This document shows positions 22,319 through 26,631 of a stretch of 34,726 bases of DNA, piece by piece. Under the pieces are notes generated by a model. It was not told where the DNA came from and did no database searches. It worked only from the letters and a program-made list of their open reading frames with translations. How positions within the stretch are numbered: position 1 is the stretch's first letter; every line of letters starts with the position of its first letter. A program made the translations under genes and the position numbers. This stretch comes from Alphaproteobacteria bacterium (lineage in GTDB: Bacteria; Pseudomonadota; Alphaproteobacteria; Rs-D84), in contig JAGBSK010000046.1 in assembly GCA_017631895.1 (NCBI GenBank), positions 1-34,726 of the forward strand, read 5' to 3'.

Positions 22319-22346
22319 ATCATATCAGTTTATTTTGCTAAATCAA
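22319..22346 (-). promoter_or_regulatory. prfB promoter, leaderless type
   Basis: Minus strand: -35 TTGATT (22341-22346), a 16-nt spacer and -10 TATGAT (22319-22324), then 7 nt to ATG 22311. It is divergent from the 22355 promoter. Confidence 0.6.
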
Positions 22347-22354
22347 ATGAATGT

Positions 22355-22383
22355 TTGCCTTTTGCAAACGGTTGTGATAAAAT
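22355..22383 (+). promoter_or_regulatory. Promoter of the 22407 gene
   Basis: -35 TTGCCT (22355-22360), a 17-nt spacer and -10 TAAAAT (22378-22383). The leader of about 17 nt contains GAGAGGGA. Confidence 0.65.
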
Positions 22384-22406
22384 TATCGCAACGAGAGGGA
22401 TTATCT

Positions 22407-23654
22407 ATGAAGCGTTTTCTTTGTGTCTTTGGTGTAATTGGTGCATGCTTGTTGGCGGATTCTGCGTCTGCGGTGTCTGCGGGTACGGTCGGTGCAACGG
22501 ATAAAAATCGCGGTTCATTGATTCAGACGCCGACGGCAAACGGTGGCGCACGTGGCTATGCGGGAACTGCAAACGCGTATAAAACAAATCAGCGCAACAC
22601 ATATTTTATGATAACCCAACCTGACGTAGATACGGCCTGTCGTGAAAAGATTTACAAGTGTCTGTCCGGCTATTGTGGCGACATGACCGTTGTCCCGGGT
22701 CAGCGCGAATCAAAATGTCAATATGCAACGGAAAGCGAACTGTACAACTATGCATTGTTGTGCCTGCAACGCGATACGGAAATTTTGTTGCCGCAATATG
22801 GCGCAAATACGGCGAATTATACCGGTGGTATGAATACTGCGGCACGCCTGTGTCCATCCTATGTGCAACAGGAATTGATGTCTTACATGTCCATGGCGAA
22901 CATGGCGACCCAGTTGTCCAAGTCTAATTCGAATCTGTGTATCCAGCGTCGCCAGGAATTAGAGGCTGCAATGTCATGTCATTCAGTCGCACTTGCCTAT
23001 GGCAATGAAACATCCAGTATGCTGACCACCCAATTGACTGACTATTGCGGTGCCGGTGTTCCGGGGGGCAGTGCGGAAATGGTAACACGTTTTGCCAATG
23101 CGGGTAATGTTGGCGCAAACATTTGGGGCTGGGCGGAAAAAATCGTCAGCCTGGATTTGAACAAAAAGGGCGAAGACTGGCAGGCTGCAATTGATGCAGT
23201 CCTGGCGGGCTATACCAACCGCATGAATTTGGCGTGTGGCGATAATATGCAGTTGAATACGGTATCTCATGGGTCGAATTCTTCCCAGCCAACGGCGTTG
23301 CAGACGGTGGCTGCATTGGCTGTGAACGCGGCATTCCCAACAACCGAACAAAAAATCGAAAATCCGTACGAAAATCAGTCCATTTGGATGGAGGTTCGTT
23401 CATTAAGTGATGAAATTTATACATACGACCGCGCGTTCCAGATTATCAATGCGGCGATGTCGTTGCCTTCTACAACCCAGAACGCATTTTTGACCAGTGC
23501 ACAAATCGACAATATGCAAAAGGCGTACATCCGCGGAACCAAGGTTTTCATCCTGCGCGACAGTGCGCGTTGCTTTGTTGTTCCGGTTGCCACAATGACC
23601 GACGCGGAACAATCGCTGGTGGCGCAATCCTTTGCGAATTGCCTCAGCAAATAA
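22407..23654 (+). CDS. Cysteine-rich secreted protein of unknown family
   Basis: This 415-residue protein has a clear Sec signal peptide (MKRFLCVFGVIGACLLADSA, cleavage after SASA). The mature part has 12 Cys, an even number, spread over its length, beginning with CREKIYKCLSGYCGDM. Disulfides formed in the periplasm are likely. An Asn/Thr/Gly-rich N-terminal part leads into mainly helical sequence, and a fairly conserved-looking segment follows (SIWMEVRSLSDEIYTYDRAF, then residues to the end). I recognise no domain or enzyme motif. It is a monocistronic gene with its own promoter, GAGAGGGA site and terminator. ATG 22407 is chosen over upstream starts because it begins the signal peptide. Confidence 0.87.
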   Translation: MKRFLCVFGVIGACLLADSASAVSAGTVGATDKNRGSLIQTPTANGGARGYAGTANAYKTNQRNTYFMITQPDVDTACREKIYKCLSGYCGDMTVVPGQRESKCQYATESELYNYALLCLQRDTEILLPQYGANTANYTGGMNTAARLCPSYVQQELMSYMSMANMATQLSKSNSNLCIQRRQELEAAMSCHSVALAYGNETSSMLTTQLTDYCGAGVPGGSAEMVTRFANAGNVGANIWGWAEKIVSLDLNKKGEDWQAAIDAVLAGYTNRMNLACGDNMQLNTVSHGSNSSQPTALQTVAALAVNAAFPTTEQKIENPYENQSIWMEVRSLSDEIYTYDRAFQIINAAMSLPSTTQNAFLTSAQIDNMQKAYIRGTKVFILRDSARCFVVPVATMTDAEQSLVAQSFANCLSK

Positions 23655-24289: not shown

Positions 24290-25171
24290 CTAAATCGAAC
24301 CAAAATATTTTTTTACTTTCTGTTTGTTTTTATTGCCAGGAACAAAAATCGAAACAAATTTACACGCGGGAATCATCACATTTCGTACAGCCCAATTGTT
24401 TGGTATTTTACGTTCACTTTGACCGCGCAGCCAACGCAATCCACCGTATTTTGGATGTCCTTTGTGCCTAGAAATAACCTTAATCATTGGCATTTCAACT
24501 TTGTTCACGTATTTTATTTTTCTTTCTGGGAATCCGTATGCGCGTCCACACAACAGATAGTTTTTATCGATTAAATACGCATTCAAATGTGATTCATCGT
24601 CAACGCGTGCAACAATGTTGTTGTCTAAATCGATTTGAACGTTCTTTTTCAATTTATGACACATTTTCAAAAATGCTTCACTTGTTCCGCCGTTAAATGC
24701 GCCACATACATAGTGTTTCCCTTTGCCGTATGGAACAAATGCGGTCGATTCAGGTCGGCGTTCATATCCAAATAAATCAGGGTTTCCAGCCAAAACGTCG
24801 CCACGTCGTCCTGGGTGGCTGCCTGCAACCAATCCATCGTGCCATTCACACGGTGTAATTTCTGCCAAGTCAACGGGATTTACAAACTCCATATTTGCAT
24901 TAAAGAAATAAATATAATCAAATTCTTTTAATTCTTTTTCGCGCTGCAAGAACATCTCAAATCGCAACAGGGTGTCAAACGGCCATCCCTTTTTTTGTGC
25001 GGGTGTAATATGCACATTTTTTGCATCGCAATAGTCAAAAGATTCATTATCGGTCCAAATAAAGTATTCCTTTTCGCATGGTCCTAAATATTTTTCACAG
25101 GATTCATAGAATCCCTTCCAGAAAGACACATACCGTCCCAACGCAATATATAAAATGGCAACTTTTTTCAT
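24290..25171 (-). CDS. GT6-family glycosyltransferase (ABO/alpha-1,3-Gal(NAc) type)
   Basis: This 293-residue protein closely follows the mammalian ABO transferases and their bacterial relatives. It has EYFIWTD (35-41), WPFDTLLRFEMF (63-74), FGYERRPESTAFVP (134-147), YVCGAFNGGTSEAFL (154-168) and the acceptor/donor motif DDESHLNAYL (191-200). Family members move Gal or GalNAc from UDP-sugar to a beta-galactoside. The mammalian DXD metal-binding motif is here NAN (91-93), as known for metal-independent bacterial GT6 enzymes. It has no signal peptide, so it is cytosolic, and probably acts on a lipid-linked surface glycan. It stands alone, without other glycan genes nearby, which suggests horizontal gain. 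AGGAG lies 7 nt before the ATG but inside a hairpin. Confidence 0.93.
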   Translation of the reverse strand: MKKVAILYIALGRYVSFWKGFYESCEKYLGPCEKEYFIWTDNESFDYCDAKNVHITPAQKKGWPFDTLLRFEMFLQREKELKEFDYIYFFNANMEFVNPVDLAEITPCEWHDGLVAGSHPGRRGDVLAGNPDLFGYERRPESTAFVPYGKGKHYVCGAFNGGTSEAFLKMCHKLKKNVQIDLDNNIVARVDDESHLNAYLIDKNYLLCGRAYGFPERKIKYVNKVEMPMIKVISRHKGHPKYGGLRWLRGQSERKIPNNWAVRNVMIPACKFVSIFVPGNKNKQKVKKYFGSI

Positions 25172-25369
25172 AAAAGAACTCCTATCTGTTTATCAGTAAT
25201 AGGAGTCGGGAAGTTCGATAAGTCAGATAACTTTGACCTTGTGGTTTTTAGATGCGGACACCGCAACCTGTTGTATAGCCACAACTTCCCGACCTTTTAT
25301 GTCGGGACGGTTAGTCAAAACAAATGCTTGTTAGTTATCTGGGTTATCGACGCCCAACTGCTAACTGAC
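25172..25369 (-). promoter_or_regulatory. Structured GT6 mRNA leader, candidate riboswitch-like element
   Basis: There is no gene in this 290-nt divergent gap. All stems are exact complements. Arms 25178-25185 and 25199-25206 (8 bp) enclose the GT6 AGGAG. Arms 25205-25215 and 25283-25293 (11 bp) compete with 25287-25293 and 25301-25307 (7 bp). Arms 25215-25232 and 25333-25350 (7 + 9 bp) compete with a local 25330-25334/25361-25365 hairpin. Smaller stems are 25232-25237/25314-25319, 25239-25244/25279-25284 and 25253-25257/25261-25265. A minus-strand promoter would start the RNA at about 25369, right at the first stem. The helices themselves do not fix the strand. It matches no riboswitch, 6S, tmRNA or SRP signature I know. 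Confidence 0.6.
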
Positions 25370-25375
25370 ATAGGT

Positions 25376-25404
25376 ATGATAAAGGAATATTTACCCAAAC
25401 GCAA
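25376..25404 (-). promoter_or_regulatory. Promoter of the GT6 leader
   Basis: Minus strand: -35 TTGCGT (25399-25404), a 17-nt spacer and -10 TATCAT (25376-25381). The start would be near 25369, leaving a leader of about 198 nt. Confidence 0.6.
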
Positions 25405-25425: not shown

Positions 25426-25454
25426 TTGAACGATGGTGTGGTTTTTGATATAAT
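25426..25454 (+). promoter_or_regulatory. Amidase promoter, leaderless type
   Basis: -35 TTGAAC (25426-25431), a 17-nt spacer and a perfect -10 TATAAT (25449-25454), then 7 nt (AAAAGCC) to the ATG. There is no Shine-Dalgarno. Confidence 0.75.
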
Positions 25455-25461
25455 AAAAGCC

Positions 25462-26631
25462 ATGAAAATTACCCGTCGAAATCTTTTAAAAATCACCGGT
25501 TTTTCTGTTCTGGCGGCATCTGTTTTGCCACGTGTTGCGTTTGCGGCGCGCAATTCCCTGCGGTCTTTGCGCACGGGGGTGCAACCCGGCAATAAAACGC
25601 GTTTGGTGATTGAAACGTCAATGCGTCCATCGTATTCCCTGTCATACCCTGCGGGCCAGTTGGTGGTTAATATCGCAAATACTGCGGCGAATACATCTGT
25701 TGTGGCAAAATTGGCGTCCGACGGTCTGGTAAAATCAATATCCCAGACACAAAACGGCGACGGTTTGCAAATTATCGCGAATCTGAAAAAATCAATTGCC
25801 CAGATTCCAAAATCTGGTGTGATGATATTGGAACCCAATGGCGACAATGATTATCGTCTTGTACTGGATTTTATCGCGGGCACAACGGGGACGACCGCAA
25901 ATGATACTTACACAACAACGTCTGCCACGGCGACAACTGCAATTACGGCCGCTCGCAAATACGTTATTGTTGTTGATGCCGGCCATGGGGGCAAGGATCC
26001 GGGCTGTATCGGCAAGGGCGGCACCCGCGAAAAAGACATTGTGTTATCAGTTGCGAAAAAGTTGAAAAACAAATTGGATGCAAACGGTTTCAAAACATAC
26101 CTGACGCGTGACGGCGATAAATACTTAAAGTTGGCGGACCGTGCCGCCATTGCCGAAAAACGCAAGGCAGACCTGTTTATATCGCTGCACGCCAACGCGA
26201 ACCCAAGTCGCCAAATGAAGGGTTTTTCAATCTATACCCTGTCTGAAAAGGCGTCGGACGAAGAGGCTAAAAAACTGGCCGAGGCTGAAAACGCCGCCGA
26301 CAAAATCGGGGTCGAGGGCTTTACCGAATTCGAAGAAAACATCCGTATCGCATTGTCATCTTTGCAACAACATGCCGTCGCGGAAATGAGCGAAGAATAC
26401 GCCACCGGCTGTGCAAAATCGTTCAAGCGTGCATCTATTGAACAGCAACCCGGGCCCGACGTACGCCATGCACCGTTTGCGGTTTTACGTTCGACCGTTC
26501 CGGGCGCGTTGTTGGAATTGGGGCACCTGTCCAACGTCGCCGAAGAAAAGTTATTAAAGACATCGTCGCACCAGGACAAATTGGTCGCCGCAATCGTCAA
26601 ATCGGTCAAGAACTATAACTTCGAAGTATAA
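25462..26631 (+). CDS. amiC: N-acetylmuramoyl-L-alanine amidase, AmiC type, Tat-exported
   Basis: This amidase splits daughter-cell peptidoglycan by cutting the bond between muramic acid and L-Ala. The 389-residue protein starts with a twin-arginine signal (TRRNLLK, then a hydrophobic stretch, cleavage after AFA). An AMIN domain (about 35-140), which targets the division septum, is joined by a Thr/Ala-rich linker (about 140-165) to an Amidase_3 domain. Zinc and catalytic residues are in VDAGHGGKD, the Glu of TREKDI, SLHANAN and the C-terminal LLELGHLSN. An insertion (about 250-310) matches the regulatory helix released by EnvC-type activators, by family analogy. The ATG is chosen because the signal begins there; the upstream TTG is the -35 box. 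Confidence 0.95.
   Translation: MKITRRNLLKITGFSVLAASVLPRVAFAARNSLRSLRTGVQPGNKTRLVIETSMRPSYSLSYPAGQLVVNIANTAANTSVVAKLASDGLVKSISQTQNGDGLQIIANLKKSIAQIPKSGVMILEPNGDNDYRLVLDFIAGTTGTTANDTYTTTSATATTAITAARKYVIVVDAGHGGKDPGCIGKGGTREKDIVLSVAKKLKNKLDANGFKTYLTRDGDKYLKLADRAAIAEKRKADLFISLHANANPSRQMKGFSIYTLSEKASDEEAKKLAEAENAADKIGVEGFTEFEENIRIALSSLQQHAVAEMSEEYATGCAKSFKRASIEQQPGPDVRHAPFAVLRSTVPGALLELGHLSNVAEEKLLKTSSHQDKLVAAIVKSVKNYNFEV

Follow-up and report, generated by a model that had tools for sequence, protein, structure and literature searches.

A divergent sRNA-Xcc1 element before a GT6 glycosyltransferase gene as a probable antisense leader in gut Alphaproteobacteria

What does a long, structured leader do in front of a bacterial glycosyltransferase gene? 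The leader that raises this question covers positions 25172-25404, minus strand, of a 34,726-nucleotide stretch of DNA, hereafter the window (positions 1-34,726 of contig JAGBSK010000046.1, GCA_017631895.1, from an Alphaproteobacteria bacterium of the order Rs-D84 whose genome is 66% complete). It lies upstream of a GT6 glycosyltransferase gene (24290-25171, minus strand, ATG at 25171-25169; PF03414, E 1.6e-21), which is the gene it putatively controls. An initial annotation of this DNA described a minus-strand leader of many helices with competing arms, part of the GT6 message, and that description is supported by our analyses.

All of the inverted repeats named in that annotation are found in the sequence. 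The arms 25178-25185 and 25199-25206 form 8 base pairs (100% paired), 25205-25215 and 25283-25293 form 11 (100% paired), 16 of 18 positions are paired between 25215-25232 and 25333-25350, and 25301-25307 is confirmed as an alternative partner of the 25283-25293 arm. The minus-strand leader RNA folds at -80.2 kcal/mol, compared with -58.2 +/- 4.4 for shuffled sequences (z -4.96, 0/200 shuffles as good). The plus strand gives a similar value (z -4.71), so the strand was assigned from other evidence, namely an excess of G-U pairs and copies that point to a downstream gene. The helices had been thought to be mutually exclusive. This holds for P0 (25301-25307 with 25287-25293) and P1, which exclude each other, but the long-range helix and the 11-bp helix are compatible, since they share one nucleotide and are ordered as a pseudoknot.

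Read 5′ to 3′ on the minus strand, the leader opens with a hairpin that we call A (25330-25365), which has an outer helix GTTAG/CTAAC (25361-25365 with 25330-25334) and an inner helix TGGG/CCCA (25353-25356 with 25340-25343); by inspection, relatives have it at the same place, as do canonical sRNA-Xcc1 and C4 loci. It overlaps a1b1, the 5′ copy of a two-part target (25333-25350; a1 TCGATAA at 25350-25344, b1 AGATAACT at 25340-25333) that is the complement of 25215-25232. The 5′ arm of P0 follows (25301-25307), competing with P1 for 25287-25293. The core itself is closed by P1, whose 5′ strand GTCGGGAAGTT (25283-25293) begins the match to the Rfam model discussed below (RF02221, 25197-25293) and whose 3′ strand is AACTTCCCGAC (25205-25215). 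P2 pairs TTGTGG (25279-25284) with CCACAA (25239-25244) and encloses the conserved motif UAUACAACAGG (25267-25277), with an AUACAA that is near-invariant in the lineage and canonical sets alike, and a small hairpin TGCGG-TGT-CCGCA (25253-25265). Beyond P2 lies the P3 hairpin GTCA-AAGTTATC-TGAC (25222-25237), whose loop (b′, 25226-25233) complements b1, and then a′ (TTATCGA, 25215-25221), the complement of a1. The last 3 nt of the P1 3′ strand are common to the base of a terminator-like hairpin, ACTCCTAT/ATAGGAGT (25178-25206), which includes the Shine–Dalgarno sequence AGGAG (25183-25179) and is followed by a U-rich stretch, U25177-C-UUUU25172, directly before the ATG. A partial and weak complement of a′b′, CTGATAAACAGATAGGAG (25179-25196), is a possible remnant of a second target copy, a2b2.

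In the window, the state with P1, P2 and P3 is predicted at -44.5 kcal/mol and the state with P0 and the terminator at -41.7 kcal/mol; with a gap of only 2.8 kcal/mol the two are nearly equal. A strict exclusion of P1 by the terminator is unsupported by these energies, as the two share about 3 nt and could nearly coexist. As separate duplexes, a1b1:a′b′ is worth about -18.0 kcal/mol and the a2b2 remnant -10.4 kcal/mol.

Compensatory changes, which had been proposed as a check of these helices, are abundant. Across 86 distinct relatives, copies drawn from the window's genome and related ones, which are mostly metagenome-assembled genomes (MAGs) and dominated by the copies of three of them (G014, G032 and G010), the helices contain 222 double-changed cells against 60 when shuffled, in an alignment (A2) that was fitted to the model structure and so leans toward the model in its pair counts. 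An alignment made with MAFFT (A1) points in the same direction, with 70 double-changed cells against 21. Both strands of P1 and of P2 are covered by this signal: all 7 P2 pairs have changed on both sides, while the counts for P1 are lowered by a register that varies among copies. The small hairpin within P2 (helix 3 of the model) is paired in 97.7% of cells with all 3 pairs covarying, and P3 (helix 4) in 92.1%. When P2, the inner hairpin and P3 are read on the minus strand there are 150 G-U cells against 24 A-C cells, an excess which identifies the minus strand as the RNA.

The element was first thought to belong to no known class, and this is not borne out by a search of Rfam. At curated thresholds nothing is found at the element. 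With a relaxed threshold, sRNA-Xcc1 (RF02221) is the sole family matched up to E 10, with 37.6 bits at 25197-25293 on the minus strand, below the gathering cut-off of 53 bits. The same model scores 35.1, 31.6 and 30.8 bits at the homologous site of independent relatives (L019, L016 and L021, respectively), and it has matches in 53 of 99 relatives, with up to 12 per genome, compared with 1 of 14 control genomes. Two copies in same-genus relatives exceed the cut-off (57.8 and 55.5 bits), and across the phylum RF02221 is found in 57 of 398 genomes. For the reciprocal search we built a covariance model, R1, from 26 alphaproteobacterial copies only. Among 30 canonical sRNA-Xcc1 loci, R1 scores a hit exactly on the element in 27; among 15 C4 loci it has no hit. 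Its score of 59.5 bits in the window is not independent, as the window is in the training set; independent evidence for membership comes from the score against Rfam and from the reciprocal search. These reciprocal matches at exact sites place the window element in the sRNA-Xcc1 family as a divergent member. The conserved core of that family is present in the window (P1, P2, AUACAA, the inner hairpin and P3), with TAAA at the GAAA position. Searches with the C4 model (RF01695) found nothing at the element up to E 10 and, with E 1 as the limit, nothing at canonical sRNA-Xcc1 loci.

The window and its relatives share with canonical sRNA-Xcc1 the P1-closed core, AUACAA, the inner hairpin, and P3 with b′ in its loop and a′ behind, as well as a1b1 upstream and a gene downstream. 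They differ in that the lineage element adds P0 and an intrinsic terminator at P1 and has mostly lost a2b2, and in that the window scores below the cut-off. A hairpin and T-run that abut or overlap the P1 3′ strand are found in 81 of 86 lineage copies and 4 of 35 canonical ones (shuffled mean 1.35). P0, a predicted local hairpin that would sequester the P1 5′ strand, falls within the best 5% of shuffles in 72 of 86 lineage copies against 5 of 35 canonical copies. The 8-bp hairpin described as hiding the ribosome-binding site (RBS) does hold AGGAG in the window, but the equivalent site is an intrinsic terminator in 81 of the 86 copies. The window hairpin with its UCUUUU was found by a relaxed terminator search, and missed by a stricter scan that admits only loops of 3-8.

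A same-strand open reading frame lies downstream of 83 of the 86 copies, at a median of 50 nt to the start codon, with start codons picked by simple scoring. A crude hydropathy criterion classes 67 of 82 downstream proteins as signal-peptide-like. The secreted ones include outer-membrane barrels and autotransporters, and the others GT2, GT6, GT-D and RgpF; there is no common pathway. With R1 the window genome has 5 strong hits, and copy numbers reach 49 in G014, 27 in G032, 24 in G072 and 20 in G010. Four further families in the order (f2, f3, f5 and f6) and five class-level genomes, which double as a negative control, gave no hits in this search, and a genome of yet another family (G078) gave 5 weak ones.

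What distinguishes one copy from the next is its private complementarity. In the window, a′b′ pairs with the 5′ region better than expected (z -5.2, 0/60 shuffles as good). Among lineage copies the duplex energies give z below -2 in 78 of 86 cases against the 5′ region and in 7 of 83 against the RBS. A test of two-part exact matches was added because duplex energies alone missed part of the canonical RBS match. It supports 5′ pairing in the canonical and the lineage copies (Fisher p 3e-28 and 2e-51, respectively), and RBS pairing in the canonical ones (p 8e-16); for RBS pairing the lineage gives p 0.07 (9/86) and the window alone p 0.04 (an 11-nt match). Control segments give p at or near 1, and permutations of own against swapped partners support both the 5′ and the RBS pairings. 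Within a genome the a′b′ sequences are all different (5, 29, 16 and 11 distinct sequences in four genomes), and the own 5′ copy is the best partner in 53 of 61 cases: 5/5 in the window genome, and 23/29, 14/16 and 11/11 in the others. The layout can be followed in locus L075, with GCAAAccccaaACACAAGCGG at the 5′ end, CTTGTGTCGGTTTGCAA in the core and GCAAAGGAGACACAAGCCATG at the RBS. In canonical loci the second target copy, a2b2, is often found around the Shine–Dalgarno sequence and start codon of the next gene. It is mostly gone in the lineage of the window, and masking of the RBS by a′b′ is unsupported there as a general mode, though it holds in canonical loci. In paralogue pairs (L143/L154, L147/L165 and similar) the gene starts are about 94% identical, the b′ loops 59% and the rest of the 5′ leader 57%, which suggests that genes have been homogenised or leaders exchanged. 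With the rest of the 5′ leader equally divergent, these pairs hold no evidence of diversifying selection on the b′ loop.

This arrangement is familiar from phage immunity. The C4 RNAs of phages P1 and P7 (RF01695; c4-2, RF02944) have the same order of parts: a1b1, a core with b′ in a loop and a′ at its flank, a2b2 at the RBS, and the gene. C4 is cut by RNase P where P1 begins; its b′ blocks the RBS, and its specificity comes from a′ (PMC5320573). Antirepressor-type genes, the class under C4 control, lie behind canonical sRNA-Xcc1 relatives as well: the 29 downstream proteins of canonical-type loci include 10 antirepressors (Bro-N 5, Rha 3, P22_AR 1 and KilA-N 1), besides SymE in 2. There are differences too, as the models match in neither direction, AUACAA was not seen in C4 loci, and the lineage uses a terminator; hairpin A, P3 and a1b1/a2b2 were matched up between C4 and sRNA-Xcc1 loci by eye, which does not test homology. 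The CI RNA of satellite phage P4 is a second, functional parallel. It is a processed RNA that pairs with upstream and downstream complements (seqA and seqC), causing transcription termination (PMC4825925). P4 CI targets replication genes, whereas the lineage leaders precede surface and glycan genes. In Acinetobacter baumannii a phage-type antisense fold with variable specificity loops has likewise multiplied in one genome (PMC5320573); that family matches C4, whereas the lineage copies match sRNA-Xcc1 and lie directly before genes with a terminator.

We consider it probable, with some reserve, that the leader, as a member of the sRNA-Xcc1 family, is a chromosomal antisense module of the C4/CI type and governs the gene that follows. 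An RNA started near 25370 would carry first hairpin A with a1b1, next the P1-closed core with b′ in the P3 loop and a′, and last the terminator-like hairpin with the Shine–Dalgarno sequence in its 3′ arm and the GT6 start. Once made, a′b′ could form a pseudoknot with a1b1 of its own RNA; alternatively, a core released from another transcript could supply a′b′ in trans. By analogy with C4, RNase P would probably release this core by cutting where P1 starts, and the processed RNA would begin at the 25283-25293 strand. An NCC follows P1 in 15 of 30 canonical loci, which is only suggestive of such processing. The window encodes a class A RNase P RNA (2452-2782), which could, on the same analogy, be the candidate processing enzyme. 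Pairing of a1b1 with a′b′ would then bias the choice between P0 and P1, and with it the stop of the polymerase at the terminator and the exposure of the Shine–Dalgarno sequence. In its terminator-like hairpin, which holds this sequence, and in its weak a2b2 remnant, the window element appears to have the parts for both the C4 and the P4 CI modes.

Much of the same anatomy would serve a purely cis-acting attenuator, in which the pseudoknot times co-transcriptional folding or responds to a protein and no antisense RNA acts in trans. This is the strongest of the competing readings, and we regard it as a possibility of about one chance in a few. Cis pairing needs an own 5′ copy that is the best partner, as is found for nearly every copy, and the RBS copies are mostly lost in the lineage. 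Against it, C4 and CI, which are similarly built, work as antisense RNAs in their own right (PMC5320573, PMC4825925), and sRNA-Xcc1 is a discrete 88-nt RNA in Xanthomonas (PMC2996969). A riboswitch of the termination type seems less likely still, one in which a metabolite stabilises the pseudoknot and the P1 core around AUACAA and so sets P0 with termination against P1 with read-through. Terminator-type riboswitches are also pseudoknotted leaders with a terminator just before a gene, and a complex conserved core, a near-invariant AUACAA and two states close in energy would suit one. Yet specificity in the lineage lies in a′ and b′, private complementary arms that are gene-specific and all different between the copies of one genome, unlike a conserved ligand pocket; the downstream genes have no common pathway, and in canonical relatives a second copy of the target lies at the RBS.

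That the element is an independent gene for a trans-acting sRNA, placed before GT6 by chance, is improbable: sRNA-Xcc1 has been described as trans-acting and the copies end in a terminator, but a same-strand reading frame so close behind nearly all copies is too regular. We give very little weight to a mobile DNA hairpin of the MITE or attC kind that is not an RNA at all. The copies are dispersed and numerous, and integron cassettes carry sRNA-Xcc1 (PMC12444791), but the excess of G-U over A-C and the fixed position and orientation before genes led us to set this aside. A thermosensor that melts to free the Shine–Dalgarno sequence is just as improbable. It would account for that sequence lying within an 8-bp hairpin; in most relatives, however, the hairpin is a terminator with the Shine–Dalgarno sequence downstream of it, and a plain thermosensor was rejected on this ground. 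We found no evidence that a ligand or temperature drives the leader, as had been supposed, and the best-supported signals are the private complementarities of the C4/CI type.

If the antisense reading is correct, sRNA-Xcc1, which appears in the part of the literature we could consult as an orphan, virulence-linked sRNA, gains a testable job from the common layout, that of a self-targeting antisense leader for the gene that follows. Up to 49 copies whose addresses are all different and match their own targets would supply a natural collection of orthogonal RNA regulators, and the expansion of the leader points to possible gene-by-gene control of surface proteins in tiny gut-bacterial genomes. 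We speculate, with rather less confidence, that gut Alphaproteobacteria took over a phage-type antisense immunity leader in dozens of copies per genome of about 1 Mb, with orthogonal private addresses, so that each surface-protein or glycan gene is separately self-repressed (perhaps bistably), and that sRNA-Xcc1, C4 and P4 CI form one functional superfamily of self-targeting antisense leaders. In a same-genus genome, an sRNA-Xcc1 that scores above the cut-off precedes a phage Rha-type gene (L028, 1501-1586), so the chromosomal copies may have come from a phage. Phage and plasmid collections gave no DNA match to the element. Many leader copies in G014 lie no more than a few hundred bases from the ends of contigs (C3, C4, C6, C13, C22 and C32), often before near-identical signal-peptide genes (MRKLLTAGIFGTILG.../MKKTLILTSAITILT...), which suggests that a large repeated surface-protein family breaks the assembly.

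The GT6 gene itself is incidental to the leader, which is a module that comes and goes, and the idea of a GT6-specific element did not survive comparison with relatives. Four orthologues of this GT6 in public gut MAGs (63-77% identical) lack the element within 2 kb, as does a more distant Paenibacillus GT6 (39%), and other copies precede unrelated genes. At the syntenic place beside the amidase in L008, a leader that is 82% identical (R1, 61.8 bits) precedes a GT2 gene; in L010 the amidase and GT2 are present and the leader is absent.

As for the start of the transcript, the proposed promoter (25376-25404, minus strand) has its hexamers in the sequence, TTGCGT at 25404-25399 and TATCAT at 25381-25376 with 17 nt between them, but they are weak and fall below the cut-off of a consensus scan. 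L008 has -35- and -10-like hexamers at the equivalent place. Across the 86 copies TATAAT-like hexamers cluster about 135-180 nt upstream of the core; in the window the -10 is only about 85 nt away from it, and the cluster therefore gives no more than general support for a promoter near the 5′ end of the leader. The divergent amidase (25426-25465 in the window) has an extended -10 promoter of its own, TTGAAC-17-TATAAT at 25426-25454, with an ATG at 25463; its mRNA is probably leaderless, and the mechanically called start, TTG at 25426, is not the real one.

Elsewhere in the window, a 439-aa reading frame ahead of the HU gene (22335-23654) has no Pfam match. GT6 orthologues of other gut MAGs (L201 and L198) have a different leader that also bears repeats, within the 200-250 bases that precede the GT6 start at 2001. 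In L201, a hairpin made by TGCCTAATCTAAACC and TTTGGATTAGGCA runs into eight T, with another copy of TGCCTAATCCAAAGGG beyond them, and this leader looks like another attenuator design.
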